From contig JACRLJ010000153.1 of NCBI GenBank assembly GCA_016215105.1, forward strand, positions 1,340 to 34,887: DNA of 33,548 nt, given 5' to 3'. The position numbers and the translations under genes are program-made. Position 1 is the first letter of the stretch; each line of letters starts with the position of its first letter. Origin of the DNA: Candidatus Hydrogenedentota bacterium. Lineage in GTDB: Bacteria; Hydrogenedentota; Hydrogenedentia; Hydrogenedentales; SLHB01. Of the stretch, positions 521 to 33,334 are shown piece by piece. The notes under the pieces are model-generated. The model was given only the letters and a program-made list of their open reading frames with translations, was not told the DNA's origin and made no database searches.

Positions 521-3331
521 TTGTTAGCGCCATCTACACAACGAACCGGGAATTTGCTGACAAGGAAGCGAATTCTATTAGAGGCGCGGCCAGAAAGGCT
601 CCGAATAGCGGGACTGCCAAATATCGGTCGTTGGTGTCAAAAGATTTACAGAAGCTTTCTGGCCGCGCCGCGTCAAATACCGAGATTTCAGGCCGAACTC
701 CTGGCCAATTCCGGCAGGTCACCCTATCGGGTTTGTGGGCTCCGTCCTGTCGTCTTACTGGTGGCGGCAATGCTGGGGCTATCGCTGAATGCGGCGGCCC
801 AAACGTTTAGTCAGTCATGGAAGACGGAATGTACTGAAGTTGCCGTTGATAGCTCGGGCAATGTGTACGTCACGGATTCTGCCAACGATTCTCTCGCTAC
901 ATTTACATCAACCGGAGATTCCTTGACACAATGGGGCATGCCGGGTTCGGGCGATGGGCAGTTTAGCAATCCGCAGGGAGTGGCGGTTGATACCAAGGAT
1001 AAAGTTTATGTCGCTGACTCCGGCAATAACCGCATTCAGGTGTTCACCTCGTCGGGAACCTACCTGACGCAGTGGGGTAAGCTCGGTCCGGGGGACGGAC
1101 AATTCACCAATCCGCAAGGGGTCGCGGTTGATACGTCGGGCAGTGTCTATGTCGCGGATTCCGGCAACAACCGCATTCAGAAGTTTTCGCCGGGCGGGGC
1201 GTATCTGACGCAGTGGGCCACAAGCGGAACTCCCATTGGCGTGGCGGTGGACTCTTCGGACTTTGTATACGTCGCGGAGAACCCGTTGCCAGTAGTTCAG
1301 AAGTTCTCCTCCGATGGAGTGTCTTTGGCGGAATGGCAAATGAACGGAAGCGACAGCCCCGGTTACCCAATAGGTATAGCCACCGACACCTTTGGCGCCA
1401 TTTACGTCAGCATGACGATCACGGACTATTCTCTGACCGTTACGGACTACCGGATTGTAAAGCTGACCTCTTCGGGAGCGTACGTGACCCGATGGGGACT
1501 GTTGGGATCGGGCGAAGGACAGTTTAGTAATCCGCAAGGTCTCGCAGTAAATACCTCTGGCGACGTGATCGTCGCCGATTCGGGTAATAGCCGTATCCAG
1601 GTATTCGCGCCGACACCGCTTCCGCGGCCCGTAGTGGGCTCCGTGTCCCCGCCTCAGACGCTTAACGGAGTAGTCACCGCTTCGATTCAGGCGGATGGGG
1701 TAGTCGGCCCGAGCGCCATTGCTCGTGTCTGGGCGGTAATAATCGCTCCGGGAGCGTCCGGCAGTGTGGTGGACGTCACCCTGCCGTCCGTCGGGGGAGG
1801 GAGTTACGCGGCGACACTGGATCTATTTACAGACCCGGGAGTGTACTGGATAGCGATCTATGCGGTCGATGTGTACGGAAGTATCGCGATGCCGGTAAAT
1901 ACCAGCGTGACGCAAGAATCCGATGCGGTGTTGCCCGACATCTACGAAGACGACGGCGCCCCACAGTCAGCGTCCACGTTGACCGAAGGTGTTTTGCAGT
2001 GGCACAACTTTCATGTGAGCGATGATGCGGATTGGGTCTACGTTCCGGATCCGTATTTGCGGAGAGTTTCGACATTCCGATTCGGCATAAACGCCAGTCC
2101 TACGATATCCGTCTACGGTAGTGACGGCGTCACACCGATCTTGGGCCTTGACGGCGGTTTGATCGATTTTGCGTTTAATATCGGTCCGTGCTATCTCCGC
2201 ATTACGAACGCTAACGCAATCGGTCAGGGAAACGCAACGGGATATGGCCTTCTGTTGAGTCCCGTCCCGAATGTTCCGATTAACGGTTTCCCGGGAGCGA
2301 TCACGGGCACTGTAACCAACGATTCAACGCATCTCCCTATCCCAGGCGTCACTGTTCAATTGTTGCCAACGATGGATCTTGCCCAGACCGATTCGCATGG
2401 TGTTTTCGCGTTTCCGGTAATTGCCCTTTCCGGGTTCTATACGCTTAAGGCGTTAGAGGACGGATTCAGTTCAACTCCGCTATTGGTCTATGTGCAGAAT
2501 CCGTTTACGACCGTGGCCGACATCTTTGTGACCGGCGGCGCAGCTACGGTGCTATCTGTACGCCGCGCAGGCGCAAATCCGGCCAATGCGTCTACGGTGG
2601 CGTTCACGATTACGTTTAGCGAGAGTGTCTCCGGCGTTGCAGTGAGCGACTTTGCACTGACCACGACCGGCGGCGTCTTGGGCGCATCCGTGACGTCGGT
2701 CACCGGATCGGGCGCCACGTACACGGTAGACGTCAACACCGGTTCGGGGGATGGAACCATCCGCCTGGATGTGGTTGATAGAGATACAATAGTTGGCGCA
2801 GTGAGTTCGCTACCATTGGGTGGCCCCGGGTTGGGCAATGGCAATTTCACCGGAGGCGAGGAGTACACCATTGACAAGACGCCCCCGTCGGTGAGTATGA
2901 GCTCGACGACGCTTGTTCTAACGAACACCACTCCGATACCCGTGATCGTGACATTTAGTGAACCCGTGACCGGCTTTACCTCGGGCGGCATTACCCCAGG
3001 TAACGCCAGCGTCAGCGGGTTCAGCGGCTCCGGCGCGAAGTATGGCTTCGATTTGGTTCCCAATGGTCACGGCGCCGTTACGGCCGACATCGCGGCGGGC
3101 GTCGCACACGACGCGGCCGGTAATGGCAGTCTAGCCGCCCTCCAATTCTTCCGCAACGGCGGGCCGGAAGACGTCGACAGTAGCGGGCTCGTGGACGCCG
3201 TGGACGTCCAGCTCGTCATTAACGCCGCATTGGGCCTGGACATCCACGGCCTAAACGCCGACGTGAACGGCGACTCTATAGTTGACGCCGTGGACATCCA
3301 ACTCGTCATTAACGCAGCACTGGGATTGTAG
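521..3331 (+). CDS. Secreted NHL-repeat, Ig-like, dockerin-terminated protein
   Basis: A large exported protein, probably structural or binding; no catalytic motif seen. With the TTG at 521 it has 936 residues. A hydrophobic segment ending NAAAQ (about 75-94) looks like a signal peptide. NHL-type beta-propeller repeats span ~104-364, with recurring GDGQFSNPQGVAVD and VYVADSGNNRIQ. Next come an Ig-like part, a region starting DIYEDDGAPQSA that resembles a pre-peptidase C-terminal domain, a carboxypeptidase-regulatory-like fold (GTVTNDSTHLPIPGVTV), and two bacterial Ig-like units (FSESVSGV, FSEPVTGF). The last 53 residues (884-936) are a type I dockerin with two Asp-rich calcium loops, each followed by VINAALGL. 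The start is uncertain: residues 22-60 are translated 118-bp repeat, and no ATG lies between it and the signal peptide. TTG 521 or TTG 554 are the only conventional starts before the hydrophobic core. A candidate promoter is at 427. Confidence 0.85.
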   Translation: MLAPSTQRTGNLLTRKRILLEARPERLRIAGLPNIGRWCQKIYRSFLAAPRQIPRFQAELLANSGRSPYRVCGLRPVVLLVAAMLGLSLNAAAQTFSQSWKTECTEVAVDSSGNVYVTDSANDSLATFTSTGDSLTQWGMPGSGDGQFSNPQGVAVDTKDKVYVADSGNNRIQVFTSSGTYLTQWGKLGPGDGQFTNPQGVAVDTSGSVYVADSGNNRIQKFSPGGAYLTQWATSGTPIGVAVDSSDFVYVAENPLPVVQKFSSDGVSLAEWQMNGSDSPGYPIGIATDTFGAIYVSMTITDYSLTVTDYRIVKLTSSGAYVTRWGLLGSGEGQFSNPQGLAVNTSGDVIVADSGNSRIQVFAPTPLPRPVVGSVSPPQTLNGVVTASIQADGVVGPSAIARVWAVIIAPGASGSVVDVTLPSVGGGSYAATLDLFTDPGVYWIAIYAVDVYGSIAMPVNTSVTQESDAVLPDIYEDDGAPQSASTLTEGVLQWHNFHVSDDADWVYVPDPYLRRVSTFRFGINASPTISVYGSDGVTPILGLDGGLIDFAFNIGPCYLRITNANAIGQGNATGYGLLLSPVPNVPINGFPGAITGTVTNDSTHLPIPGVTVQLLPTMDLAQTDSHGVFAFPVIALSGFYTLKALEDGFSSTPLLVYVQNPFTTVADIFVTGGAATVLSVRRAGANPANASTVAFTITFSESVSGVAVSDFALTTTGGVLGASVTSVTGSGATYTVDVNTGSGDGTIRLDVVDRDTIVGAVSSLPLGGPGLGNGNFTGGEEYTIDKTPPSVSMSSTTLVLTNTTPIPVIVTFSEPVTGFTSGGITPGNASVSGFSGSGAKYGFDLVPNGHGAVTADIAAGVAHDAAGNGSLAALQFFRNGGPEDVDSSGLVDAVDVQLVINAALGLDIHGLNADVNGDSIVDAVDIQLVINAALGL
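584..701 (-). repeat. 118-bp palindromic element, copy A (diverged, inverted)
   Basis: Read on the minus strand, this aligns without gaps to the copies at 7971 and 33217. Its outer arms GCGCGGCCAGAAAGG (584-598) and GCTTTCTGGCCGCGC (654-668) match at 14 of 15 positions. The central part and the outer flank (TTCGGCCTGAAA in place of TCCGGCCAGAAA) have drifted, so this is the oldest-looking copy. It lies inside the open 5' part of the NHL/dockerin frame. Confidence 0.8.
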
Positions 3332-3368
3332 TCTTGCGTCGTGGAAGGGGTGACGTTTGCAGTGAAGT

Positions 3369-3397
3369 TTGATGTCTTTGGTACCCGCGAGTACTAT
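3369..3397 (+). promoter_or_regulatory. Candidate promoter for the TPR-hydrolase gene
   Basis: TTGATG (3369-3374) and TACTAT (3392-3397) are 17 bases apart, each matching consensus at four of six positions. Transcription would start near 3404, about 100 bases before the ATG at 3502. A small hairpin (TGCGCCT/AGGCGCA, about 3414-3433) would lie in the leader. Confidence 0.35.
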
Positions 3398-3501
3398 CGT
3401 AGCGGATGGCAATGCGCCTGGGTGGAGGCGCAATCATGTAGTCGTTGACGTCTGGGGTTGTTCGGCGCAGCATCCCTACTAAGCGCCACGGGGCGGAACA
3501 A

Positions 3502-4716
3502 ATGGACAAAGAGCTTGCGGAAGGATACTACCGTCGGGCGAACCAGCTATTTGCGGCAGGTCAACTCGATGATGCGTTAGCGGATTTGAACGCGCTCGCG
3601 CAAGCCTTTCCAAAAGACCCCACGATTCAGTACGCCCGCGCCCGATGTTTCGCGGCGCACGGCGGCAAAGATACCGCGATGTCCATCTGTCAGCAGTTGG
3701 TCGCCGAACATCAACATAAACGCGCCGGCGAACTCTTGGCCGAACTGAATCGTCCCTCGTGCGCCGCCTTGCCTACTTCAGTGACTGAGGGTCCGCCCAA
3801 TGCGCCAGAGCGGCGTGTGCGCTGGACGCGTGTCCTCATCGTCGCGGCTGTCGCGGTCATCGGAGCCGGCGTGTACTACCAAGCGGTCGTATGGTCGGAG
3901 CAAGCCCTCGCGGACGCCAACCAGCGCGCCGTAGCCGCCGATCTCGGGTCCAGAGCAGCCAGACCGAAGAGTTCCGCTCCGGCAGGTATACAAGCCCCTC
4001 AAGCAGCGGTCATCGATCTGCGCGAGCACCTTCAAACAGAATGGATGCAAACGGCCATAAGCGGTGTTCCAGACTGGAAATCCGGGATCTATCGTCGAGT
4101 CCCAAATGTTCGCGATAACAAGTGGACAATCGATGTGTTCCTGCCCACGGCGTACGACGCGCAGCCAGAGAGCGCTTTTCCTGTGGTCTTCATTCAAATG
4201 CCTCAGGGCAACCCCGGATTCATGGAACTTGACGGATGGGCCGAAAGGCGGCAGGTGATTCTTATCGTGATGAACGAAAGCATGAACCGCAACAAGGGTC
4301 ACATGCATTACAACGAGATCGCGCAAGAAATGGCCCTTGAGACGATCAATCAGGGCATGCGCATCGATCGGCGCCTTGGTTTTGCGATGGGTACCAGTGG
4401 CGGCGGTAAGTCGTCGTGGTACCTCGTGTCGCGCTACCCGCAAAACTTTGCCGGATTATTGATGATGGCGATGAGTGACGACAATAAGTCGAGCTATATT
4501 CCGCCCCGCATTCGAGTTGCTTATGTCCACGGCGAGTCTGACTTCAATAACCCATACATCGCAAAGAAGATTCCGAAGTTGCGAGCCGCTGGGCATCAAG
4601 TCCGCGAAAAGGTAATTCCCGGAGGGCACGTCAGCGGACGGTATGAGGACATGGTTGAAATGCTGGATTGGTTGGTAACCGAAGCGCGCAAGGATATTGG
4701 GCTGCCGCTTCCCTAG
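3502..4716 (+). CDS. TPR - transmembrane - alpha/beta-hydrolase fusion
   Basis: 404 residues from the ATG at 3502; the frame also opens at a TTG at 3445, but that stretch looks non-coding. The N-terminal ~90 residues form TPR-like helices (YYRRANQLFAAGQLDDALADL). One membrane segment follows at about 106-128 (VLIVAAVAVIGAGVYY), then an Ala-rich linker. The C-terminal half is an alpha/beta hydrolase like the esterase-D/PHB-depolymerase group. It has the strand PVVFIQMPQG, a nucleophile elbow GTSGGG (Ser ~299) and a late His in GGHVSG (~376). A likely acid is Asp in HGESD. The predicted topology puts the TPR inside the cell and the hydrolase outside the inner membrane. Substrate unknown. It follows the NHL/dockerin gene by 170 bases with its own candidate promoter. 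Confidence 0.8.
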   Translation: MDKELAEGYYRRANQLFAAGQLDDALADLNALAQAFPKDPTIQYARARCFAAHGGKDTAMSICQQLVAEHQHKRAGELLAELNRPSCAALPTSVTEGPPNAPERRVRWTRVLIVAAVAVIGAGVYYQAVVWSEQALADANQRAVAADLGSRAARPKSSAPAGIQAPQAAVIDLREHLQTEWMQTAISGVPDWKSGIYRRVPNVRDNKWTIDVFLPTAYDAQPESAFPVVFIQMPQGNPGFMELDGWAERRQVILIVMNESMNRNKGHMHYNEIAQEMALETINQGMRIDRRLGFAMGTSGGGKSSWYLVSRYPQNFAGLLMMAMSDDNKSSYIPPRIRVAYVHGESDFNNPYIAKKIPKLRAAGHQVREKVIPGGHVSGRYEDMVEMLDWLVTEARKDIGLPLP

Positions 4717-4824
4717 CCAATGTATTTCACCACAATAACCATGACACGCGACTGCTCGTCAAAACCGACACTGTGTGACCTTCGGGAAATTCATGGATGT
4801 CCCCACGGCGCCGTCGAGAAAAGA

Positions 4825-6750
4825 CTAACGCAAACTGTCCAGTTCCGCCCAGCGGGCATAGAGTTGTTCGACTCGCGCCTTTGAGCGCTCGTGTTCGGCG
4901 AGGGTATCCTGGACTATTTTGTAGTCTTGGGTGTAGAACCCATCCCCGTGGAGTATCGCGTCCAACCGGGCCACTTCGGCTTCGGCCGTGTGGATATCGG
5001 TCTCCATCCGATCCAGTTCGCGCTTCTCTTTCCAGGAAAGCTTACGCGCGGCCGGGCTCGCGGCGGCTTTGGGTTCGGGGGAGGCGGCTTTCGTGGTCGC
5101 CGGAGCCTTGTCCGCTTCCTCACGCTTGGACTTGTAGAGGAGATAGTCATCGTAGTTGCCGACAATAGGGACTACGCGGCCGTCGTCTTCGAAGATCAGG
5201 ACGTGCGTGCATACCCGATTGAGGAAATAGCGGTCGTGACTTACGATTAGCGCGGCGCCGTCGAACGCCAAGACCGTTTCCTCGAGCAGGCGCAGGGTCG
5301 GAAGGTCCAAGTCATTCGTCGGTTCGTCCAGCACCAATACGTTTCCGCCGCGCAGAAGCTTCTTGGCAAGGTCCAGGCGATTGCGTTCGCCGCCGGATAG
5401 ATTCTTCATCGGCATGTGAACGCTCTCGATACTGAAGAGGAACTTCTCCAGATAGGACGGAACGTACATACGCCGACCGTTGATTTCCATATAAACTTGG
5501 CCGTTGGACACGTGCTTGAGGATGGTCGAGTTGGGGTCCACCTCTTCGTGCAATTGGTCCACGTAGAGAAACTGGACGGTGTCGCCGCGGACGACACGGC
5601 CCTTGTTGGGATCGAGTTCTCCCATCAGCAGCCGCAAGAGGGTTGTCTTGCCGCACCCGTTCGGTCCTATCACCCCCACTCGCATGTCTTTTTGCAGGAT
5701 GAATGAGAGACCGGTGACCAGCGTACGCTCTCCAAGCCTCAGCGTTACCGTGTCGGCTTCGACCACGCGCTTACCCAGACGCGGCGCCTCGGGGATTTCG
5801 AAAATGAAATCCTTGTGTTCGAGGGGGGGGCCTTTGGCTTCGACTTCGTCATAGCGATCAATGCGCGCTTTTTGTTTGGTGCTGCGCGCCTTTGCGCCCC
5901 GGCGCAGCCACGCCAGTTCGCGGCGCAATATGGCTTGGCGGCTGACTTCGGTTCGCGCCTCGCTTTCCAGGCGCACGCTCTTGTATTCGAGATAGCGTTC
6001 GTATTGCCCGACAAAGCTGTAGATCTTGTGGAACTCGATTTCGACGATACGGTTTACGACGCGATCGAGGAAATACCGATCGTGCGTGACCAGTACGCAG
6101 CTCCCGGGATAGCTGGCGAGAAACGTTTCGATCCATTCCACGCTGCGCGTGTCGATGTGATTCGTTGGTTCATCCAGCAAGAGGAGGTCGGGCCGCCGCA
6201 CGAGTTGAGCCGCGAGATCCACCCTCCGCAGTTCCCCGCCTGACAGTGAGTTCAAGACGCGATCTTGCGGCGGCAGGTCCAGCGCGATGGAGGCCTTCTT
6301 AATGTCCTGATCGAGATTCCAGGCGTCTGTCAACTCGATCTCGTGCTGCAATTGGCTCAACTGATTTTGCGCGCGGCGGTGCTCGGGAGAATCCTCGGGA
6401 GTCGAGGCCAGCACGTCCATTACGCGGTGATATTCATCCACCATATCCCGGACCTCGCTGACGCTTTGGTCCAGCGCCTGCTCGATGGTCAGGCTCGGAT
6501 CCAGCTTGCACTGCTGCGCGAGCAGGCCCACGCGAAGGCCCTGGCTGCGGGTGACGATTCCCTCGTCGGGCGTTTCGAGGCCGGCCATGATCTTCATGAG
6601 GGTGGACTTGCCACAACCGTTGCGACCGATGAATCCGATTCGATCACCTTCGTGAATCGTGAGGGAGACGTCCCGGAGCACGGGCTGTGCGCCAAATCCT
6701 TTGGAGATAGACTGGACGCTGAGGATTGCTTTTGTTGGTTCGGAGCTCAT
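4825..6750 (-). CDS. uup: ABC-F family ATPase, Uup type
   Basis: 641 residues, soluble, with no membrane segments. Two ABC cassettes each carry Walker A (GRNGCGKST at 42-50; GPNGCGKTT in the second), the ABC-F signature LSGGE, and Walker B with LDEPTNHID or LDEPTNDLD. They are joined by the charged ABC-F linker (ELAWLRRGAKARSTKQKAR), which in this family reaches the ribosomal tRNA site. An Ala/Pro/Lys linker then leads to a C-terminal coiled coil (ELDRMETDIHTAEAEVARLD) typical of Uup and its DNA/ribosome-binding tail. The family acts on translating ribosomes. It is a single gene, divergent from the 6927 gene and convergent with the hydrolase gene. Confidence 0.93.
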   Translation of the reverse strand: MSSEPTKAILSVQSISKGFGAQPVLRDVSLTIHEGDRIGFIGRNGCGKSTLMKIMAGLETPDEGIVTRSQGLRVGLLAQQCKLDPSLTIEQALDQSVSEVRDMVDEYHRVMDVLASTPEDSPEHRRAQNQLSQLQHEIELTDAWNLDQDIKKASIALDLPPQDRVLNSLSGGELRRVDLAAQLVRRPDLLLLDEPTNHIDTRSVEWIETFLASYPGSCVLVTHDRYFLDRVVNRIVEIEFHKIYSFVGQYERYLEYKSVRLESEARTEVSRQAILRRELAWLRRGAKARSTKQKARIDRYDEVEAKGPPLEHKDFIFEIPEAPRLGKRVVEADTVTLRLGERTLVTGLSFILQKDMRVGVIGPNGCGKTTLLRLLMGELDPNKGRVVRGDTVQFLYVDQLHEEVDPNSTILKHVSNGQVYMEINGRRMYVPSYLEKFLFSIESVHMPMKNLSGGERNRLDLAKKLLRGGNVLVLDEPTNDLDLPTLRLLEETVLAFDGAALIVSHDRYFLNRVCTHVLIFEDDGRVVPIVGNYDDYLLYKSKREEADKAPATTKAASPEPKAAASPAARKLSWKEKRELDRMETDIHTAEAEVARLDAILHGDGFYTQDYKIVQDTLAEHERSKARVEQLYARWAELDSLR

Positions 6751-6849
6751 TGAATTCCACCGATTCTTGTTTGAAGGACAACGTTATACACTATTTGGAG
6801 GCTCCAGGATAGCTCGCGCGGTTGCGTGGACAGCGTGAGTTCTCTACTT

Positions 6850-6878
6850 TTCCGCGTCCTGGGCGAGTGTGCTATAGT
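6850..6878 (+). promoter_or_regulatory. Candidate extended -10 promoter
   Basis: TGCTATAGT has a good -10 (TATAGT, 6873-6878) with the TGn extension. The -35 position (TTCCGC, 6850-6855) is weak. It lies 48 bases before the ATG of the 211-residue gene at 6927. Confidence 0.35.
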
Positions 6879-6926
6879 ACGCGCCGGCATGGGAATGAGT
6901 AGGGCACAGAGCGGACCATTTCAAGT

Positions 6927-7562
6927 ATGACGACCGGCGAACACCATCCGACGTTGACTGACCTGGAGGTATTGCGCCAGCAGCGGCAGGAAGTGCTCGG
7001 GCACGTTCTGGATCTTCTCGAGAAGGCCGAAGACCGTAACGCGGACGAGCCGGAAAACGAGACCAAATGGCGGCGGGTCCTCAACAACCTGTGGAAGTCG
7101 TTTGACGAAGCCAAAGCGCGTCTGGCCGAAGTCGAAGCGATGATCGAGCAAGAGCATCGCAAGACTATCCAACCGGCGCCGTCTCCGCTCGAGCCGCAGG
7201 CAGCCCCGGCGCCAGCCATTTCTCGGCCAGCTTCTCAGGAACCGCCAGCCAAGGCGCCCGCCGCGACCCCGCGGTATGCCAGTTTGAAAGTCTCCTCTGG
7301 CAAGAGCGTTCAGGAGCGGCGGCTTCAGCTTCTTTATCGAGGCGCCATTGACAAAGTGAAAGACAGGCGTATTGCGTGGATGACCATGGAGGAACTCGAT
7401 TTGGCCATCGAGTTCTTTGGCGCCCTATCGCGGCGGCACAACGCGAATCCCGAAGACGACACGCTTACGCGGTTCCTCGATAAGGCCAGCATCAACGTGG
7501 ACGAGGTGTGCGCCGAAATGCGCCGGCGCCGCGCGCAACTCTACGCCAAGAAGACGCGCTGA
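6927..7562 (+). CDS. Unknown protein: helical N-part, Pro/Ala linker, C-terminal domain
   Basis: 211 residues, no signal peptide or membrane segment. Residues ~1-80 are strongly helical and charged, likely a coiled coil (EVLRQQRQEVLGHVLDLLEK, then ARLAEVEAMIEQEHRK). A Pro/Ala-rich linker spans ~83-115. A basic C-terminal part (SVQERRLQLLYRGAIDKVKD, then a helical MTMEELDLAIEFF) ends AQLYAKKTR. I do not recognise the family. Codon use and the promoter-like site upstream support a real gene. It is monocistronic, divergent from uup and followed by tRNA-Leu on the other strand. Confidence 0.7.
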   Translation: MTTGEHHPTLTDLEVLRQQRQEVLGHVLDLLEKAEDRNADEPENETKWRRVLNNLWKSFDEAKARLAEVEAMIEQEHRKTIQPAPSPLEPQAAPAPAISRPASQEPPAKAPAATPRYASLKVSSGKSVQERRLQLLYRGAIDKVKDRRIAWMTMEELDLAIEFFGALSRRHNANPEDDTLTRFLDKASINVDEVCAEMRRRRAQLYAKKTR

Positions 7563-7658
7563 AGCCGTCCACATCGCCCGGCTGCGCTTGATACTATCCC
7601 CCCGGACCGACGCCCACGCGCCTCGAAAACCGCGCTGGGCAAGAAAGAGAAAAGTTAA

Positions 7659-7745
7659 TGGTGCCGGAGAAGGGAATTGAACCCCCACTCCCTTGCGGGA
7701 ACCGGATTTTGAGTCCGGCGCGTCTGCCAGTTTCGCCACTCCGGC
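7659..7745 (-). tRNA. tRNA-Leu (anticodon CAA), CCA encoded
   Basis: On the minus strand the acceptor arm GCCGGAG pairs with CTCCGGC, followed by discriminator A and encoded CCA (7659-7661). The anticodon stem CCGGA/TCCGG encloses loop CTCAAAA, giving anticodon CAA, which reads UUG leucine codons. A long variable arm (TTCCCGCAAGGGAG) and the T-loop GTTCAATTC fit a class II leucine tRNA of 87 bases. Confidence 0.96.
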
Positions 7746-7840: not shown

Positions 7841-7898
7841 TGACAGGTCTGACAGGTTGGACAAGTCGGACAGGTTGGACAAGTCGGACTGGCGGACC
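7841..7898. repeat. 9-bp-period GGAC array (six units)
   Basis: Six consecutive 9-mers read TGACAGGTC, TGACAGGTT, GGACAAGTC, GGACAGGTT, GGACAAGTC, GGACTGGCG, then GACC. Units alternate, so an 18-bp higher order is visible. It lies between tRNA-Leu and copy B of the 118-bp element, in otherwise gene-free DNA (7746-8090). Confidence 0.8.
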
Positions 7899-7970
7899 GA
7901 AGTGGCAGCATGACTGCGGGACGATCTCCTGCTGACATGTGGCCACGTCAAGCGATGCCGTGGTTCGCTA

Positions 7971-8088
7971 GGAATCCGGCCAGAAAGAAAGCTTTATGAC
8001 GCGGCGCGGCCAGAAAGCATTTGTAAGTGGTTCAATACCAGCGCTGGCTCGTACGGGCTTTTGCTATGCGGAGGCTTTCTGGCCGCGC
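7971..8088 (+). repeat. 118-bp palindromic element, copy B
   Basis: It starts GGAATCCGGCCAGAAAG and ends in GCTTTCTGGCCGCGC. The inner arms at 8004-8018 and 8074-8088 are perfect 15-bp inverted repeats. By hand count it differs from the copy at 33217 at about 13 of 118 positions, with no gaps. The right edge lies 2 bases from the stop codon of the Eis-like gene. Confidence 0.9.
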
Positions 8089-8090
8089 CT

Positions 8091-9302
8091 CTAAAAGCGA
8101 TCGAACCGCCAGACGTAAGGATTGCGTTTAGGGAAGAGCGCGGTGAGCAATTGGCGGGCTTCGTGGCGTATCAAGCGGCGCCGCGCCGCGATGACATCGT
8201 CCAGGTGAAGATATCCCGTCAGCAGTTGGATGAGTTCCGTCAGGCTGACACTGAGTTTGTTCTCGCCGGGCGCTGAGGCGACATCAATGGCGCCTCGGTT
8301 TGCGCGCACGCGGAAGTTGGCGTGGTTGACGACCAACGCGAATTCGGTTCGCAGTTCGCGCGCGGCGCTTCGCGCGAGTAGGCTCTCCCATTCGGGGATC
8401 ATGTGCTCAAGCGTTTCGCCAATGTCGATAGGGGCCATCATTCCGCCAGCGTCGCGCTCGACTCGCATTTCGTGCGTGGATTTGATCTGGAGCAGGAAAC
8501 GCGCAAAGGGGTGGCCGGGTGGCGCGTAGAATCGCATCTTCCCGAGGTTATGCTCGACGGCGTACGCGGCGCAGGCGCTCAATACCGCGGGGTAGGTGGA
8601 GGGGTCGGTCACTCCCACTTCCGCGACGCTCAGACCGTCGTTCTCCGGATGGGCATGAAAGTACGCGCAAACCTTGCCCTGTTCCGTGGTGAGAGTCTGA
8701 ATGGCCTTGTAGGATTGTTCCCAGCGGTTGGTGATGTGCGCGCCGGTCCGCAGGAGCGAACACGCGACATCGGCGTCGTTGGCATGATGGATTCGTTGCA
8801 GCGCCGCGATATCTCCCGGCTTGGCGGTTCGCAGGCGGTACCCGCACTTGAGCCGCATTCCTTCGGCGACATCGACCGCGATGACGTATTCCGCGAGGGT
8901 CACGGCAAATCCGAATTTGTGGTAGAAGTTGGGGATACCAAAAAGCATTGCGACGTCGTAGCGATGACTGCGCAAGTAGCCAAGCGTGTCATTCATCAGC
9001 GCGCGTGCGATGCCCTTGCTTCGGAATCGGGGCGCGGTAGTGACCCATCCGAAGCCCCCCATTTTGAGACGGGCTTCGCCGATGCGAATGGTTTCCGTGT
9101 TTAGGCGGAGCGCGCCGGCAATTTCACCCCTATGCGCGGCGATGCGCGTGTGCTCGCGTAGGAATCCCGGATAGCCCGCTCCGCAGGTTTCGAGCCAGTG
9201 CATGCCGGCGAAGAAATCCTGGTAATGCACTTTCGCCATCAAATCGTTCGCGAGACGCAACTCCGCATCCGACTCAACCGCGCGATAGACGACCTGCTCC
9301 AT
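8091..9302 (-). CDS. Eis-like GNAT acetyltransferase
   Basis: 403 residues, an N-acetyltransferase of the Eis type: an N-terminal GNAT domain, a second GNAT-like fold and a C-terminal SCP2-like region. The acetyl-CoA loop is visible near 90-100 (APRFRSKGIARAL), where the R/K-x-x-G-I-A pattern binds pyrophosphate. Tyr128 in NFYHKFGF aligns with the general-acid Tyr of mycobacterial Eis. The protein ends ...WRFDRF; in Eis the carboxylate of a terminal Phe acts as catalytic base, so a Phe end is meaningful. The start has GGAG eight bases upstream, and a TACAAT box lies near 9341-9346. The natural acceptor is unknown. Single gene; the stop abuts a 118-bp repeat. Confidence 0.85.
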   Translation of the reverse strand: MEQVVYRAVESDAELRLANDLMAKVHYQDFFAGMHWLETCGAGYPGFLREHTRIAAHRGEIAGALRLNTETIRIGEARLKMGGFGWVTTAPRFRSKGIARALMNDTLGYLRSHRYDVAMLFGIPNFYHKFGFAVTLAEYVIAVDVAEGMRLKCGYRLRTAKPGDIAALQRIHHANDADVACSLLRTGAHITNRWEQSYKAIQTLTTEQGKVCAYFHAHPENDGLSVAEVGVTDPSTYPAVLSACAAYAVEHNLGKMRFYAPPGHPFARFLLQIKSTHEMRVERDAGGMMAPIDIGETLEHMIPEWESLLARSAARELRTEFALVVNHANFRVRANRGAIDVASAPGENKLSVSLTELIQLLTGYLHLDDVIAARRRLIRHEARQLLTALFPKRNPYVWRFDRF

Positions 9303-9420
9303 TCTGCGTTCTCCGCTTCAGATCTACGTGACCCGCTTGAATTGTACCACAGGCCTGACCGAGGAAGGATTAGCGTAGAGAATCATACTGACGGAGCCTT
9401 GTGATCGGTGGCGATTGCCG

Positions 9421-9591
9421 CGAGAAGCAGGGACAGACTCGCTTTTCAAACTGCTGAAAAGCGAGTCAGTGCCCAATCTTCGCTTGAGCTTTGTGTTTGT
9501 TGCGCGACGGCCGCGAAAAGCAGGGACAGACACGCTTTTCAAACCGCCGAAAAGCGAGTCAGTCCCTGGTTTTCGCTTGAGCTTCGTGTTC
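9421..9591. repeat. Two 93-bp-spaced direct repeats, each with a long hairpin
   Basis: Two ~78-base units start at 9421 and 9514. Each has the order AAGCAGGGACAGA, hairpin, CGCTTGAGCTT. In unit 2 the arms AGGGACAGACACGCTTTTC (9522-9540) and GAAAAGCGAGTCAGTCCCT (9549-9567) pair over 19 bases with two mismatches around an 8-base loop. Unit 1 has arms 9429-9447 and about 9456-9474. The gap 9303-9618 holds only this and the control region of the Eis-like gene. The hairpins could stop transcription of neither or both strands; no clear T-tract. Confidence 0.8.
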
Positions 9592-9618
9592 GATTCGTAA
9601 TTACGGGGTCTGAGTTTG

Positions 9619-26220: not shown

Positions 26221-26360
26221 TCCGCCATCAACCGTTCGCAACCAAGGGGATTCTCTGGCTCGAGGCGCCGCCGCGCTTACTAGAATCGCGGCACGCGCCG
26301 GATCGAGGACCCCACTCTCAACAACGATATCCACGCATTCGCGTGAGAAGGAACTAGAAC

Positions 26361-27257
26361 ATGAGAAACCGTGACCGCAAAGGTTTTACTCTTATCGAAT
26401 TGCTTGTCGTTATCGCCATCATCGGAATTCTTGCGGCGATACTCTTGCCTGCGCTCTCGCGGGCAAGGGAAACGGCGCGCCGGGCCAGTTGCCAGAACAA
26501 CCTCAAGCAAATGGGTCTGGTGTTCAAGATGTACTCGAATGAAAGTCGAGACAAGTATCCGCCGATGAAATCGCAGGATTGCGCCGGAAACCTGGTTGGC
26601 TGGGCGACCATATTCAAAGCGGACGCCATTTATCCCGAGTACCTGACCGATTTCAATGTGTTGGTGTGCCCGAGCGCAGCCTCAGGCGCTAGCGCCGTCG
26701 ACATTTTCGACCAGGGCAACACCTCGTCGGCGTTCTATAGGAACTTGGCATGGCCCCAGAAGAAGGATGGTGTCGTCCAGCCATGTGAAGTTTTTGAGCA
26801 CCCGTACGTTTACTTGGGTTGGGTGATTCAGGACGGGATAGCGAACACTTCCCTAAAGACTGCGGCTCTAGCGACGAATCGCGATAACTTGTATCCGCAG
26901 TTGCTTACGGGGTCCGGACCGGCGCTCGTCGACAAGGATTGGAGCGTAGTATCCGGCACGGGAGACGCCGGCGGCAATACCATATTCCGTCTCAAGGAAG
27001 GGATCGAGCGCTTTCTGATCACGGATATCAACAATCCCGCAGGCGCCGCCCAAGCCCAGTCTCAGATCGCGGTGATGTGGGACGAAATCTCGGGCGATGC
27101 GGCGAGTCATTTTAATCACGTCCCAGGCGGCTGCAATCTCTTGTACATGGACGGACACGTGGCCTACGTCAAGTACGAAGGCGCGTTCGGAAGCTCGTTC
27201 CCGGTAAATGACGGGGGAATCGTGTTTCACGAGGCCAGCCATCTGCAATTCCCGTAG
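26361..27257 (+). CDS. Prepilin-like protein, H-Xn-DG type (right arm)
   Basis: 298 residues from the ATG, with a purine-rich ribosome site (GAAGGAAC). The prepilin signal [20 protein letters not shown] is cut after Gly8. The shared blocks with the left-arm paralogue run in the same order: [56 protein letters not shown] and [20 protein letters not shown]. The C-terminal motif again has ten residues between His and DG, and one position here is Cys. The shared Cys residues could form disulfides or bind metal. Probably a pseudopilin-like envelope protein; partner genes for a secretion machine are not in this window. Confidence 0.9.
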
Positions 27258-27288
27258 CCGCGGTAAGCACTAACGCGTTCGCGGGGTC

Positions 27289-27316
27289 GCCGGGAGGGGA
27301 TTTCCTCTCCCGGCGG
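27289..27316 (+). terminator. Hairpin after the prepilin-like gene
   Basis: CGCCGGGAGGGG and CCTCTCCCGGCG pair over 12 positions with one G-T pair and loop ATTT. It sits 31 bases after the stop codon at 27257. There is no U-run, so it may be a weak or protein-assisted terminator, or an mRNA 3' stabiliser. Confidence 0.45.
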
Positions 27317-27345
27317 CCTGCGCTCGTCGAGCGCAGGCGTACGGG

Positions 27346-27367
27346 GACAGGTCGGACAACGTGGACT
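27346..27367. repeat. 9-bp-period GGAC array (short)
   Basis: GGACAGGTC, GGACAACGT, GGAC: two and a half units with the same 9-bp phase and core as the arrays at 7841 and, on the opposite strand, 138. Confidence 0.55.
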
Positions 27368-27586
27368 GAGCATCAGCGGCGCTCTGAAGAATAGCGGCAA
27401 ATGGTTGTCGGTGTTGGGGCGCCAAAGCCTGTCAGAATTCGCAGTTAGAGGCGATTTCGGCGCTCCATCCGGTGTTTGGATATTCGCATTCGGCAGCCAG
27501 CTTCTGGTACTATTTCTACGATGTGTGATTGGTTGTAGTGTATCCGCCCTCGACAAATGCGGCTCAGACGTTGTCTGGAGGAAAGC

Positions 27587-29107
27587 ATGCGCAGTAGCAG
27601 GTTTGAATTCTTTACGCTCTTGGCGTTTCTAGTCATCGCCGCTCTCGTACTCACGAACGGGTTTTCGGAACGGATTTTCGCGAAGGACAACAAGGTCGAC
27701 ACCTTTGAGAGTGTCGAGCCGATCGCCGATGTCCTCACCGAAATCTTGCGGAGTTACGTTCGCGAGCCCGATGTGAACAAAGTTGTCGAGGGCGCACTCG
27801 CCGGGATGATGAGTTCTCTGGACAAACACAGCTCCTACGTTCCCGCGGAAATGTTGAAGGAGTTGACCAGTGACACGGAAGGCCAGTTCGACGGAATTGG
27901 CGTGGTCATCGGCCCGGATGAGGACAAGAATATCGTAATCGAGCAGCAGCCTATCCCCGGCTCCCCCGCCGCCAAGGCGGGCCTGCTGGCGGGCGATATC
28001 ATCGTCAAGATAGACCAAGTTGATACCAAAGGCATGACGACGTCTGACGTCGCGCAGCGCATAAAAGGTCCTCGCGGATCGGTGGTTCATTTGACGCTGT
28101 ACCGGAAGACGGAAGGCTCCACGGCGGAAACACCGCTCGTCGAAGTCGACGTCAAGCGCGATACGATTCCGCTCGAAAGCATCACGGAAGCGCGCGTGCT
28201 CGATGGCGGCATCGGATACATTCGCGTGAAGGATTTCAAGAAGACGACCGCGCGCGATCTGGATGAGAAGCTCAAGGAGCTGCAGAAACAGGGAATGAAA
28301 TCGCTCATTCTCGACTTGCGGTGGAATCCGGGGGGGCTGCTCTCTGCGTCGAAGGAAGCCTGCGAGCTCTTCCTTCCGAAGAACACGCTGGTTACCTACA
28401 CGAAAGGACGTGGCCAGGGCGTGAAGGGTCAATCGGACGACCTGAACCTGTACACGGAGCGTACGCCTGTAGTGCCTTCCGACTTCCCGCTGGTTGTTCT
28501 GGTAAATGAATTCACCGCGAGTTCTTCGGAGATTGTCACCGGAGCGCTTCAGTATTGGCAGCGGGCGATTATCGTGGGCCAGAAGAGCTATGGTAAGGGC
28601 AGTGTGCAGACCGTAATACCGTTGCGCCGCCCGTCGGGCGCTGCCTTGCGTTTGACCACGGCGCTTTACTACACGCCGGCTAAGGTCACCATTGACAACG
28701 AAGGGATCAAGCCCGACGTCGAAGTCCCCGTCGATAATAAGACCGAAGTGGCGTTGTACAAGCAGTTGTCCAAGTCGATAATCGAATCGCCGGAGAAGAA
28801 GAACGCCCAGAACCACGGACCGGTCACGGGGAACGAGGCAAAAGATGGGACCGTCGAGGATACCCAACTCAAGCGCGCCGTGGACATTATAAAGGAGGAC
28901 GGGGTTTTCGAGCATCTGGTTGCCAAGTATCACAAGGACACCCACGAAACGCAGACCGCCGCGGCGGAGAATTCGGTGGACCAGGTAGGGAAACTTCACG
29001 GCAGGAGCGCCGCCGCGCCGCCAGACGCCGATGACGCCGGCGCGAAACCCAAGAAGGGCCACGCGCCGAAGGACCAGGTCGAGGACAAGAAAGAGGGCAG
29101 CAAGTAG
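27587..29107 (+). CDS. ctpA: C-terminal processing protease, S41 family (CtpA-like)
   Basis: 506 residues from the ATG at 27587, chosen because GGAGGAAAGC directly precedes it; an upstream ATG at 27557 lacks a ribosome site. A membrane anchor or signal (FFTLLAFLVIAALVLTNGF) exports it to the periplasm. A PDZ domain follows (GIGVVIGPDEDKNIVIEQQ; AKAGLLAGDIIVKID), then the S41 core. The catalytic pair is the first Ser of TASSSEI (Ser312) and Lys in SYGKGSVQ (Lys337), 25 residues apart as in the family. The tail is charged and Ala/Lys-rich (to KEGSK). It trims the C-terminal ends of envelope proteins. rph starts directly after the stop. Confidence 0.95.
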   Translation: MRSSRFEFFTLLAFLVIAALVLTNGFSERIFAKDNKVDTFESVEPIADVLTEILRSYVREPDVNKVVEGALAGMMSSLDKHSSYVPAEMLKELTSDTEGQFDGIGVVIGPDEDKNIVIEQQPIPGSPAAKAGLLAGDIIVKIDQVDTKGMTTSDVAQRIKGPRGSVVHLTLYRKTEGSTAETPLVEVDVKRDTIPLESITEARVLDGGIGYIRVKDFKKTTARDLDEKLKELQKQGMKSLILDLRWNPGGLLSASKEACELFLPKNTLVTYTKGRGQGVKGQSDDLNLYTERTPVVPSDFPLVVLVNEFTASSSEIVTGALQYWQRAIIVGQKSYGKGSVQTVIPLRRPSGAALRLTTALYYTPAKVTIDNEGIKPDVEVPVDNKTEVALYKQLSKSIIESPEKKNAQNHGPVTGNEAKDGTVEDTQLKRAVDIIKEDGVFEHLVAKYHKDTHETQTAAAENSVDQVGKLHGRSAAAPPDADDAGAKPKKGHAPKDQVEDKKEGSK

Positions 29108-29818
29108 ATGCGGCCGGACGACCGGGCCAGCAGTCAACTACGCCCCATCACGATTCAGAAGAATTACACCAAGTTCGCCGAGGGTTCGGTGCTAATCGCC
29201 TTTGGAGACACAAAGGTGTTGTGTACAGCGAGCGTTGAAGATCGGGTTCCCCCTTTCTTGAAGGACTCCGGTTCCGGATGGGTAACCGCTGAATACGCCA
29301 TGCTGCCCCGCTCGACTAACACGCGCGTATCGCGGGACTCCTCGACCAAGGGCCGCGCCCAGGAAATCAGCCGTCTCATTGGCCGGTCCCTGCGCTGCGT
29401 CGTAGACTTACCTGCCCTGGGCGAACGCCAGATCACGCTGGATTGTGACGTGCTCCAGGCGGATGGCGGGACCCGCACCGCCGCCATCTCCGGCGCGTAC
29501 GTGGCCCTCAGCGACGCGATAAGCAAACTCCTATCCGATGGTAAGATCAAGCACTCACCGCTATTGTCGCAATGCGCCGCCGTCAGTGTTGGACTTGTTG
29601 AAGGGGAGCCGCGCCTTGACCTTTGTTATGCCGAGGACAGCGCTGCGGATGTCGATCTCAACTTGGTGATGGCGAGTACGGGCGATATCATCGAGATTCA
29701 GGGCAGCGCGGAAGGCGATGCATTCCCCCGCTCCGACCTGAACCGGCTGATTGATCTGGCTGAGGCGGGTATCCGGCAGATCTTTGCGCTTCAGATCGAG
29801 GCCCTCGGGCGTGACTAG
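29108..29818 (+). CDS. rph: Ribonuclease PH
   Basis: 236 residues. Phosphate-dependent 3'-5' exoribonuclease that trims tRNA 3' ends. Family blocks are clear: [71 protein letters not shown] and [18 protein letters not shown]. The ATG directly follows the protease stop (TAGATG); GAGGG lies 12 bases upstream. Its stop region overlaps the rdgB start by 8 bases. Confidence 0.97.
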
Positions 29819-30407
29819 ATCGCTGGTCATGGCTACGTCCAACCGGCATAAAGTGACGGAACTCACGCAGCTCCTTACCGGTCTTTCCTGGCAGGTCCAA
29901 TCCCTTCAGGACTATCCTGCCGTCGCGCCTCCGGACGAAGACGGCGCCACCTTCGAGGCCAACGCGCTTCACAAGGCGCTCTACTACAGCAAACTGCTGG
30001 GAGCGCCCTGTGTGGCCGATGACTCCGGCATCATGGTGGATGCGCTTTCGGGCGCTCCGGGTGTCCTTTCGGCCCGCTACGCCGGTCCAGGATGTTCTGA
30101 CGCGGACAACAATGCGCGGCTGCTTCACGAATTGAACGACGTACCCGAGTCACGACGGACTGCTCGATTCGTGTGTTGCGCGGCCTTTGCGGAGCCCGAT
30201 GGCCGAACGCATGTAGAAGAAGGTATCGTTCATGGGCGGATAGGATTTGCCGCCGCCGGCGATAACGGATTTGGCTATGACCCCTTGTTCATACCCGAGG
30301 GTCATCAGATTACATTCGCTCAGTTTACGCTCTCGCAAAAGCAGGCGATCAGCCATCGAGGCCGCGCATTTCGAAAACTGCGCGCGTTTCTGGAATCCCT
30401 GCCGTGA
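29811..30407 (+). CDS. rdgB: dITP/XTP pyrophosphatase (RdgB/HAM1)
   Basis: 198 residues from the GTG at 29811. This start keeps the first beta strand (SLVMATSN), which an ATG at 29829 would cut off; GAGG lies nine bases upstream. Hydrolyses non-canonical purine triphosphates (dITP, XTP) to monophosphates, keeping them out of DNA and RNA. The motifs are [11 protein letters not shown] (triphosphate loop), [22 protein letters not shown] (metal site), [15 protein letters not shown] and [11 protein letters not shown]. Pairing with rph is a common bacterial arrangement. Its TGA overlaps the GTG of the next gene. Confidence 0.95.
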
Positions 30408-31006
30408 GACTGCTTCCGCCCACACCGGAGGGGCTGGCTATTGCCGCTGCCGCCGTTCGACGCGACGAGGTCGTCGCTTACCCGACGGACACCGTTTACG
30501 GTCTGGGTGTCAATCCCTTTTCGGAAGAGGCCGTACGACGCTTGTTCGCGGCAAAACAACGGGACGCCGGAAAACCGGTGATGTTGATCGTCGCGGACGA
30601 GGCGCAGCTTTTCCAAGTCGTGTCCCACGTGTCGTCCATTGCGAGGACCTTTATCCAGGCGTTTTGGCCGGGCCCTTTGTCGCTGCTCTTTCCGAAATCT
30701 CAGCGGCTTCCCCACTCGCTTACGGCGGGCAGCGACAAAGTCTGTGTGCGTTGTCCGGCCTCCAGAATTGCCCGGGACCTATGTCTTGCCGCGGGCACGC
30801 CCTTGACGTCGTCATCGGCGAATCTATCGGGCGATCCGCCGGTTCGATCCCTGAAAGCTCTCGATCTTCTGGGAGTCGCGGCCGGTATCGACGCGGGTTT
30901 CCTGGAGGAAAGCGAAGCCTCGACCGTATTTGACCCAGCGCACGTTGCCGTATTGCGCAAAGGCGCTGTAGCGGAAGCGGAGCTGCGCGCAACGCTGGAA
31001 TGGTGA
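30404..31006 (+). CDS. tsaC: L-threonylcarbamoyladenylate synthase (TsaC/YrdC)
   Basis: 200 residues, GTG start with GTGA overlap to rdgB. Makes threonylcarbamoyl-AMP from Thr, bicarbonate and ATP, the first step to t6A37 in tRNAs that read ANN codons. The YrdC fold shows VVAYPTDTVYGLG (~24-36), AAKQRDAGKPVMLIV, WPGPLSLLF, VCVRCPAS and SSANLSGDPP. There is no C-terminal Sua5 domain, so it is the short TsaC form. Confidence 0.95.
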   Translation: MRLLPPTPEGLAIAAAAVRRDEVVAYPTDTVYGLGVNPFSEEAVRRLFAAKQRDAGKPVMLIVADEAQLFQVVSHVSSIARTFIQAFWPGPLSLLFPKSQRLPHSLTAGSDKVCVRCPASRIARDLCLAAGTPLTSSSANLSGDPPVRSLKALDLLGVAAGIDAGFLEESEASTVFDPAHVAVLRKGAVAEAELRATLEW

Positions 31007-31011
31007 GTTGC

Positions 31012-31040
31012 TTGTTCGTACTTGCCAAATTACCTAGAAT
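31012..31040 (+). promoter_or_regulatory. Candidate promoter for hslU
   Basis: TTGTTC (31012-31017) and TAGAAT (31035-31040) are separated by exactly 17 bases, in the 94-base gap between tsaC and hslU. Its position suggests that hslU has its own start besides any read-through. Confidence 0.5.
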
Positions 31041-31100
31041 GTCTGTTCCTGGGGGAGACAGAAAGGAACCCATGTTCAACTCGATAGTACGGAGTAATTC

Positions 31101-32489
31101 ATGAGCGCGTTAACCCCGAAACAAATCGTAGAGGAACTCGACAAGTATATCATCGGTCAGGGCGAGGCCAAGCGGAAAGTCGCGATTGCGCTACGCAATC
31201 GCTGGCGCCGTCAGCAGCTTCCCGAGTCCCTGCGCGACGAAGTTGCGCCGAAGAACATCATCATGATTGGACCAACTGGCGTAGGCAAGACCGAGATAGC
31301 CCGCCGCCTCTCCAAACTTGCCGATGCGCCATTCATAAAGGTGGAGGCCTCGAAGTTTACTGAAGTCGGATACGTGGGCCGCGACTGCGAATCGATGATT
31401 CGGGAGCTAACCGAAGTCGCCGTAGGCATGGTGCGGGACGAGATGCAGAAATCACTTGCAGACAAGGCGAAGGAAGTGACGGAACGACGCCTCCTGGACC
31501 TGTTGCTCCCCCCCACGCTGCGGCCTCAACGAATTTACCGTCCCTCTGACCCCGCCGCAGGCGATGAGGCCCCGGCGCCGCTGTCGTCAAATGAAGCGGC
31601 TGAGGAGCGTACTCGGGAAATCCTGCGCGACAAATTGGCGAAGGGCGACCTGGATGATCGGGAGATTGAAATCGAGACGAAGGAAACCGGCAACGCCGCG
31701 ATGATGCAAGTGTTCTCAAATACCGGCCTCGAAGAGATGGGCGTGAATATCAACGAGATGTTCGGCAAATTCATGCCGCAGCGCAAGAAGCAGCGCAAGG
31801 TGACCGTGGCGCAGGCCCGCGCCATACTTGAACAAGAAGCCCTCCAAGATATGTTGGACATGGAAGCCGTCGTCGCCCGCGCCATCGCGGTGACGGAGAA
31901 CTCCGGTATCGTATTTCTGGATGAAATCGACAAGATCGCTGGGCGGGGAAACCGAGGCGCAGGACCGGACGTGTCGCGCGAAGGCGTTCAGCGCGACATT
32001 TTGCCCATCGTTGAAGGCAGTACCGTCACGACCAAATATGGCCCCGTCAAGACGGACCACATTCTGTTCATCGCCGCGGGGGCCTTCCATATGACTAAGG
32101 TATCGGACCTGATTCCGGAATTGCAGGGCCGCTTTCCGATCCGTGTCGAACTGGACAGCTTGGGCGCCGAGGACTTTGTGCGTATCTTGCGCGAGCCCAA
32201 GAATTCCCTGATAAAGCAGTACGTGGGGATGCTTCAAACCGAGGGCGTGACGCTAGAATTCGAGGACGATGCAATCGAGGCCCTTGCGAATGTCTGCGAG
32301 AAGGTCAATCAGGAGTCCGAGAACATCGGAGCGCGCCGCCTGCACACGATCATGGAGTGTTTACTCGAGGACATCTCCTTCGAAGCGCCCGACAAGCCGG
32401 GGGCGACACTGCGCATTGACGTGAATGAAGTCCAGCGGCGCCTGGCAAATATCGTCGAAAACCGCGACCTCAGCAAATACATCCTGTGA
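31101..32489 (+). CDS. hslU: ATP-dependent unfoldase HslU (ClpY)
   Basis: 462 residues, ATG with GGAG seven bases upstream. AAA+ unfoldase of the HslVU protease. Walker A is GPTGVGKT (57-64) and the pore loop GYVGRD is at ~90-95. An inserted I-domain spans roughly 110-245 ([21 protein letters not shown] onward). Walker B is [13 protein letters not shown]. The sensor/lid is at [20 protein letters not shown]. The C-terminus DLSKYIL is the conserved tail that docks in and activates HslV. No hslV lies just upstream or anywhere in this window, which is unusual; the neighbours are tsaC and pgeF. The end overlaps pgeF by 4 bases. Confidence 0.96.
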
Positions 32490-33202
32490 TCCGGTTTCCT
32501 CAGCTCGAAAGTCTTGGCGTGGCCGTCGCGGCCTTTTCCGAGAAATCCGACGGGAACTGCGGTTTGAGAGGGGTATCGAACGCCGCAGGCGTTCTCGCCA
32601 GCAGGCGCGCCGTTTGCCGTGCGTGTGGCGCCGACGAAGGGCGCCTGGTCTGCGCTCAGCAAGTTCACAGTCCGAATGTAGCCTGGGTCACAGCAGACAA
32701 CGCGGGGGCCGGCGCGACGGTTTGGGAGACGGGACTGGACGCCACAGATGGCTTACTCACCCAAGAGCTCGGTCTTCCGCTGGGCATTCTCGTCGCCGAC
32801 TGCGTTCCACTGTACATCGTTGACCCTCGACGCCGGGTAGCGGGCTTGGCGCATGCTGGCCGGGAAGGAACACGCGCCGACATCGCCGGCCGCGCCGTTG
32901 CAGAACTTGTTTTGACCGCCGGCGCCAATCCTGATGATCTTGTGGCGTTGATAGGTCCATCCGCGGGACCCTGCTGCTATGAAGTGTCGCCAGAAATTGC
33001 CGCCGGCTTTGCCGAAGCGGGTTTGCCCGTCAGGGGCCGGCGTCTGGACTTGTGGGAGGCAAACGTCCAACAACTCGCGGACGCAGGGGTGCCTCGCAAC
33101 CAGATTGCCGTCGTTGGCGCCTGCACCATTTGCGATGGACGCTTCTATTCGTACAGAGCGGGTGACACGACCGAACGGAATCTCGCCGTGCTAATGCTGT
33201 GA
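32486..33202 (+). CDS. pgeF: Purine nucleoside phosphorylase / laccase-domain protein
   Basis: 238 residues, GTG start with GTGA overlap to hslU. YfiH/PgeF/LACC1 family, with reported purine-nucleoside phosphorylase and adenosine deaminase activities; also linked to peptidoglycan quality control in E. coli. Zinc and active-site residues are visible: [19 protein letters not shown] (Cys), [11 protein letters not shown] (His), [17 protein letters not shown]. The usual HAGWRG appears here as HAGREG, a change at the Trp position. A 118-bp element follows 14 bases later. Confidence 0.9.
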
Positions 33203-33216
33203 TTGATCGCAGCCTG

Positions 33217-33334
33217 GGAATCCGGCCAGAAAGTCAGCTTCTTGACGCGGCGCGGCCAGAAAGCGTTTGTAAGTCGTTCAATACAAGCGCTGGCTCGCGC
33301 GGAGTTCTGTTATGCGGAGGCTTTCTGGCCGCGC
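33217..33334 (+). repeat. 118-bp palindromic element, copy C
   Basis: Ungapped match to copy B (about 13 differences of 118 by hand). The inner arms GCGCGGCCAGAAAGC (33250-33264) and GCTTTCTGGCCGCGC (33320-33334) are perfect. A second GGCCAGAAAG stands 29 bases before the one in the inner left arm, as in copy B. Between pgeF and the PolX-like gene. Confidence 0.9.

Follow-up and report, generated by a model that had tools for sequence, protein, structure and literature searches.

We analysed a stretch of 33,548 nucleotides (nt) of a Candidatus Hydrogenedentota bacterium (contig JACRLJ010000153.1, positions 1,340 to 34,887; hereafter the window), and focused on a short palindromic element present there in three copies (Table 1). 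The source genome is a draft of 6,675,297 bases in 171 contigs and is 95 % complete. Copy 2 lies between a tRNA gene, the only Rfam match above the gathering score in the window (none was obtained for the element), and a GNAT gene. All three copies were found where the original prediction had placed them, and they align without gaps inside the element. Over the 118 nt then considered, 13 differences separate copy 2 from copy 3 (about 13 had been counted by hand) and copy 1 is indeed the diverged one, with 35 differences from copy 2 and 34 from copy 3. Two dimensions had to be corrected: the copies are equal in size, but measure 127 nt instead of 118 when taken from the outer edge of one 4-nt site of the form NTAN to that of the other, and the arms have the sequence described, but form a stem of 16 bp (GGCGCGGCCAGAAAGC / GCTTTCTGGCCGCGCC) instead of 15.

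Table 1. Features of the window discussed in the text (positions counted from its first nucleotide).
Feature	Position	Strand	Description
Copy 1	578-704	minus	Minor diverged subfamily; terminal sites CCAG (left, 701-704) and CTAA (right, 578-581)
tRNA gene	7662-7745	minus	About 220 nt before copy 2
Units of 18 nt	7842-7895		9-nt spacing, like GACAGGTTGGACAAGTCG
Copy 2	7968-8094	plus	Near largest-subfamily consensus; terminal sites CTAG (7968-7971) and CTAA (8091-8094)
Left stem arm of copy 2	8003-8018	plus	GGCGCGGCCAGAAAGC
Right stem arm of copy 2	8074-8089	plus	GCTTTCTGGCCGCGCC
Stop codon TAG of GNAT gene	8091-8093	minus	TA plus the element's terminal C, right end of copy 2
GNAT gene	8091-9302	minus	Terminates in the right end of copy 2
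Two tandem units of 93 nt	9411-9596		Other intergenic repeat, with GGGACAGAC / GTCAGTCCC palindromes
Copy 3	33214-33340	plus	Near largest-subfamily consensus; terminal sites CTGG and TTGG

The family extends well beyond these three copies. A covariance model built from 43 copies gave at least 149 matches in the genome at E ≤ 0.01 (150 of 4133 candidates were scored, so that 149 may be a floor), and the exact arm pattern occurred 61 times against 0 for a reversed control, far beyond chance. In the genome stretches examined, we distinguished 155 whole or partial copies. The ends were studied on the 115 near-full ones, the gene context on the 110 or 111 with enough flanking sequence, and conservation on the 101 of exact length, or on the 92 of the two main subfamilies for subfamily counts. 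The most similar pair among the 101 still differs at 4 sites.

Both ends of the near-full copies share the same geometry, i.e. TA, then 6 nt, then CGGCCAGAAAG, the element ends being TAGGAATCCGGCCAGAAAG and TAGAGGCGCGGCCAGAAAG. A second, internal CGGCCAGAAAG motif sits in the 16-bp stem, the opposite arm of which abuts the right end. The length is exactly 127 nt in 101 of these 115 copies, and the conserved block is bounded by the 4-nt sites, which read CTAG at 61 left and 70 right ends (at both in 42 copies) and GTAG at 7 left ends and no right end. Beyond the terminal sites conservation is essentially absent, with one exception: T is rare (6/115) at the second base past the terminal site on the right. 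Compared with the consensus, the 101 copies have a mean identity of 97 % for the arms, 95 % for the left motif and 80 % for the loop; pairwise differences amount to 0.055-0.064 (arms) and 0.294 (loop). Loop sequences split the copies into two main subfamilies (50 and 42 copies) and minor ones, one of which includes copy 1 of the window.

Shorter forms were also retrieved: one of about 93 nt, without the stretch between direct repeats, one of 72 nt (locus L184) and one of about 44 nt, little more than both ends folded back together. In addition, fragments of about 41 nt consist of the left end only and have a nearly constant 3' boundary. Among the 100 listed of 118 left ends, 20 were outside the covariance-model list, and those fetched were mostly such 41-nt left ends, with a few 44-nt forms. 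An alternative left end, CTACAACGCTATTCGCCATAGTAG, was found at six sites (L038, L180, L185 and L200-L202); at the first three it is joined to the usual right palindrome, i.e. a modular exchange of ends.

The terminal sites were used to delimit what is duplicated upon insertion. Among TA-intact copies, the outer bases of NTAN vary more than the inner ones (26/165 vs 8/165, p = 0.0017), variants being found at 18/83 left and 8/82 right outer positions and at 4/83 left and 4/82 right inner positions. In 16 copies that have TA at both ends, the left outer base is not C; in 14 of them the right one is C and in 2 it repeats the left base, which argues against a 4-nt duplication of CTAG. The duplication thus seems to involve TA only, mostly within CTAG, with the inner G on the left and the inner C on the right contributed by the element. 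CTAG, which may be a mutation hot spot, is itself under-represented in the stretches examined (703 occurrences vs 986 expected, overlaps and elements included), and at L142 two tandem copies have a single CTAG in common.

Joined flanks were further searched for paralogs without the element, which were found for 3 of 127 queries (L105, L110 and L176). All of these paralogs, about 76-83 % identical, align through exactly one 4-nt junction site with no extra bases. This site is CTAG in L011 and TGAA in L146 (paralogs of L105), GGAG in L067 and L068 (paralogs of L110), CCGG in L204 and TCGG in L106, L201 and L219 (paralogs of L176). At such identities the site of the copy actually struck may have differed from that of its paralog.

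These counts bear on a possible parent of the IS5 type, for which the family would be made of miniature inverted-repeat transposable elements (MITEs) that duplicate the whole of CTAG. The precedent is MITEPsy1 of Pseudomonas syringae, which, in the part of PMC3189936 that deals with it, is 100 nt long, has repeats matching mainly inside and duplicates CTAG or YTAA. Matches to DDE_Tnp_1 are present in the genome, but their loci carry no element ends and the 4-nt site is not duplicated as such, as seen from the 14 copies above. Some IS5 subgroups duplicate TA and could still be involved; all in all, we regard an IS5-type parent as very unlikely.

A different kind of mover was suggested by the 13 Y1_Tnp matches of the genome (L058-L070). 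The family would then resemble repetitive extragenic palindromes (REPs) or their inverted pairs (REPINs) and be moved as single-stranded DNA by a Y1 enzyme, either a REP-associated tyrosine transposase (RAYT) or an IS200-like one, with the left NTAG as the target in the host, the right CTAG as part of the element and the isolated left ends as REP singlets. Its size, hairpins, variable loop and many dispersed copies would fit, and so would the singlet-like left ends and the stronger variation of the left outer base. However, the element adjoins none of the 13 Y1 matches, three of whose loci (L059, L061 and L062) are cut by contig ends, while RAYT genes are always flanked by two REPs according to a passage of PMC2817692. 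At L058 a left-end fragment lies about 1.1 kb upstream of the Y1 match, with another reading frame in between. Several Y1 genes adjoin palindromes of their own (GTAGACGCGGCG..CGCCGCGTC at L067, CCGGTTTTGGAAAAACCGG at L070), and the genome seems to hold several REP/RAYT-like sets. Moreover, the two ends of the element are inverted repeats of equal geometry, and its commonest tetranucleotide is CTAG, not GTAG. The REP resemblance noted in the original prediction, along with the TnpA-REP-type transposase that it suggested looking for, is thus disfavoured, and we consider this origin quite unlikely.

By contrast with these two readings, a DDE transposase with IS630-like target choice would account for the ends. 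IS630 itself, going by the title of a 1991 report by Tenzen and Ohtsubo, is said to prefer the TA within CTAG. Elements of the IS630/Tc1-mariner group insert into TA and duplicate it, as stated in one section of PMC2170065, and both the duplication of TA and the preference for CTAG could be deduced from the end bases of the present family. As regards the general features of MITEs, the element is short, non-coding and bounded by inverted repeats, and it combines a duplicated target and element-free junctions, both in paralogs and between orthologous genes, with many dispersed copies and internal-deletion forms; the likeness to MITEs, also noted from the window alone, is thereby borne out. We conclude that the family is probably one of GC-rich, TA-duplicating, non-autonomous DNA transposons (MITEs), moved by a DDE transposase. 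This enzyme, most likely of the IS630/Tc1-mariner type, would have acted in trans on the terminal repeats and cut and pasted the element into TA, which would have been duplicated next to the element's own first bases, G at the left and C at the right. Later on, the loop would have drifted, while the ends would have been kept by the need to be mobilised, and most copies that landed inside genes would have been lost by selection.

Several observations weigh against this conclusion. No DDE_3 (IS630) transposase match above the cut-off was found in the 95 % complete, 171-contig draft, and the loci fetched for 7 DDE_Tnp_1 (IS4/IS5-type) matches showed no element ends. Variation is stronger at the left outer base than at the right one (p = 0.053 for the counts given above), an asymmetry that symmetric insertion does not predict and for which we offer no explanation. 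Neither is there a simple explanation for the left-end-only fragments of about 41 nt and their near-constant 3' boundary. Finally, CTAG was found at the junction in L011 only, and the paralogs do not prove a CTAG target; as the paralogous junctions mostly lack CTAG, our confidence in a MITE with IS630-like target choice was lowered slightly. Multi-copy insertion sequences are often missing from draft genomes. An autonomous copy with both ends was also sought in 17 unlisted left ends together with about 4 kb downstream, where a right end (up to 5 mismatches) occurred only in the mini copy at L218. Since no IS630-type transposase gene with the same terminal repeats was found, we state that the element works like an IS630-type MITE and do not claim membership of that group. 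The family may now be stranded, its mobilising enzyme not having been found in the draft genome.

The absence of insertions and deletions between the window copies had been tentatively attributed to coding or structural constraint, and a resemblance to the Rickettsia palindromic elements had been noted. The latter are inserted in frame inside genes, and the three window copies are all open in two frames. Among the 92 copies of the two main subfamilies, 76, 53, 1, 9, 21 and 65 were open in the six frames, whereas 75.4, 49.4, 1.5, 7.4, 21.4 and 67.1 were expected with random bases at the same changed sites, and 73.3, 34.2, 1.2, 10.5, 10.4 and 66.2 when positions were random too (this laxer model somewhat underestimates openness in two of the other frames). 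Openness thus equals the neutral expectation, and at most 5 of 111 sites are inside a called gene. The frame simulation and the in-gene counts contradict coding constraint, and the probability that the element is an in-frame coding one of the Rickettsia kind is negligible.

Structural constraint, assessed through compensatory changes in the arms, was not supported either. Over the 16-bp stem of 101 copies (1616 cells), both sides had changed in 2 cells and one side in 26, while 74 were broken and 1514 unchanged; among 16 predicted pairs in 43 copies, no both-side change was seen. Single strands fold more stably than shuffled ones (z from -2.3 to -5.6), as would be expected of a long inverted repeat. 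The same folding would also suit a hairpin adopted by the host on top of a MITE origin, with which it is compatible; the arms would then be maintained by selection because they act at the 3' ends of mRNAs, as a site for RNase III, for some other processing or for protein binding. In favour of such an exaptation, changes within the two main subfamilies are rarer in the arms (2.9 %) than in the loop (12.0 %) or the flanking TA (13.9 %), and nearest-neighbour pairs differ at 0.040 per site in the arms vs 0.117 in the loop. On the other hand, private changes are about equally frequent in arms (0.0129) and loop (0.0140), which is weak evidence because fast sites mutate repeatedly; compensatory evolution is lacking; and of the 155 copies, 88 lie between tandem, 25 between divergent and 22 between convergent genes (observed counts, without background). 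The conserved arms can be explained sufficiently by selection on the source copies to stay mobile. A host role for them is a possibility that we hold unlikely.

In order to locate the copies relative to genes, genes were called with a hexamer script of our own instead of a standard gene finder; the element was first removed and its flanks joined, since it breaks reading frames itself. The 111 sites fell into 25 at a gene stop, 81 intergenic and 5 inside a called gene, vs 37, 201 and 120, respectively, for 358 background CTAG sites. Copies are thus strongly depleted inside genes (5/111 vs 120/358, p = 2e-11), and special targeting of stop codons was not significant when stop and intergenic sites were compared with the background (25 and 81 vs 37 and 201, p = 0.094). 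Landings at stop codons therefore follow from the CTAG target and the loss of copies inside genes. Seen from the host, either end reads TAG, because TA is duplicated and the inner G and C are the element's own. A gene whose TAG or TAA stop supplied the target would accordingly keep a stop on whichever side it lay, and convergent genes overlapping at CTAG would both keep theirs. Frames of at least 140 codons entering the element (110 copies) meet the terminal TAG at 30 ends, as compared with 7 and 9 in the other frames; no such excess was observed at 318 background CTAG sites, with 62 in the TAG frame vs 34 and 67. Ten of the 30 frames ending in the terminal site were scanned and 8 had Pfam matches. 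In 6 of them the domain runs to the profile end or nearly so (MFS_2, Proton_antipo_M, Peptidase_MA_2, Aldo_ket_red, Peptidase_S9 and Acetyltransf_1); the two others, Transglut_core (below cut-off) and Response_reg, were matched in the N-terminal half and are therefore uninformative about the C-terminus. On the strength of domain coverage and orthologs, truncation of genes by the copies was considered unlikely.

The convergent pair at L072 provides a comparative case. Its first gene is present in 6 of 24 relatives, with the protein ending at the same residue in 6/6. In the 4 of these for which the stretch fetched includes the convergent MFS neighbour, the stops of the pair overlap by 4 nt at CTAA (L235) or are 21, 28 and 35 nt apart; here, the element puts them 119 nt apart and both read TAG. 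The element can thus enter gene ends at CTAG without protein change, both ends restoring TAG, and L072 illustrates how a mini-transposon enters gene ends, even a convergent overlap at a CTAG-type site, while the proteins remain unchanged. The places in which such elements can last are shaped by CTAG, which is scarce, and by TAG stop codons. Stop rebuilding by such elements was not described in the literature titles and abstract openings consulted, which does not prove its absence. One may go further and see in the ends an evolved safe-landing device, presenting TAG to both sides and leaving in the 3' untranslated region a hairpin retained as useful to the host, an idea that we find doubtful.

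As for distribution, one copy was used as query against 24 genomes of the same family, without any match among the best candidates (up to 14 per genome), and against 35 further genomes of the order, where the same number of candidates gave a single trivial 24-nt match. The exact arm pair was absent from 67 other genomes of the class. Plasmid and phage records gave no match to one copy used as query, and the exact-arm pattern was not found in viral contigs. Since no searched relative carries the family, local amplification is indicated. The exact arms did occur at 5 loci among genome contigs of other organisms, i.e. one in a Prevotella metagenome-assembled genome (MAG) and 4 in one Gallionellaceae MAG; these were rejected as members, their loops and flanks being unrelated. 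The Gallionellaceae MAG (UBA2239, L054-L057) contains at least 4 copies of a different repeat with arms CGGCCAGAAAGC / GCTTTCTGGCCG and a loop of 67 or 68 nt, and the sharing is apparently a coincidence of arm sequence. The family is, so far, a lineage-specific, GC-rich, TA-duplicating MITE, new but of an otherwise known kind, and the manner in which it spares gene ends is well documented.

Other repeats accompany the element. Sequences similar to the 93-nt units of the window (Table 1) are found near many loci, and the copies at L142, L175, L187, L219 and L105 have a common left flank that is seemingly part of such a repeat. At one and the same end of another repeat family, several copies of the element are found. 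Stretches similar to the 18-nt units flank other copies (e.g. L007 and L037), and recurring hairpin-like CCGGCGGATGAGGACATCCGCCCTCC stretches in the flanks of L080, L148 and L176 apparently represent a further intergenic family.

The element can finally be set beside known systems. A REPIN is an inverted pair some 110 nt long that has a variable loop, and singlets occur as well; unlike REPINs and their RAYT, the element stands beside no Y1 match, favours CTAG over GTAG and has TA on both sides. It is close to MITEPsy1 in length (100 nt for the latter), CTAG target and inverted repeats that match chiefly towards the inside, and differs from it in that MITEPsy1, according to the relevant part of PMC3189936, has a 4-nt duplication and a proposed IS5-type parent, ISPsy2. 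With the Correia elements (NEMIS) of Neisseria it shares a copy number above 100, terminal inverted repeats and the existence of length classes (107 and 155 bp for Correia). Passages of PMC10969869 and PMC2229807 report that, once in mRNA, the Correia terminal repeats serve as sites for RNase III. Fusion to reading frames is found for the 107-bp Correia form, whereas the present element is almost wholly outside genes, the two being compared by description, not by sequence. A further counterpart is RUP of Streptococcus pneumoniae (107 bp, associated with IS630-Spn1), also about 100 bp long and intergenic, with about 110 copies, terminal inverted repeats and a TA target, as outlined in sections of PMC2229807 and PMC3049150. 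RUP is AT-rich and its terminal repeats resemble those of an IS630 in the same genome, whereas for the family studied here, which is GC-rich and located in CTAG, no partner was found. RU-1 is the element otherwise called ERIC. The portion of PMC2759123 devoted to RU-1 describes a 127-bp element with terminal repeats, TA ends and TA duplication, and reports that at the end of ECA3499 it eliminated the normal stop and lengthened the protein, whereas the present element rebuilds the stop.

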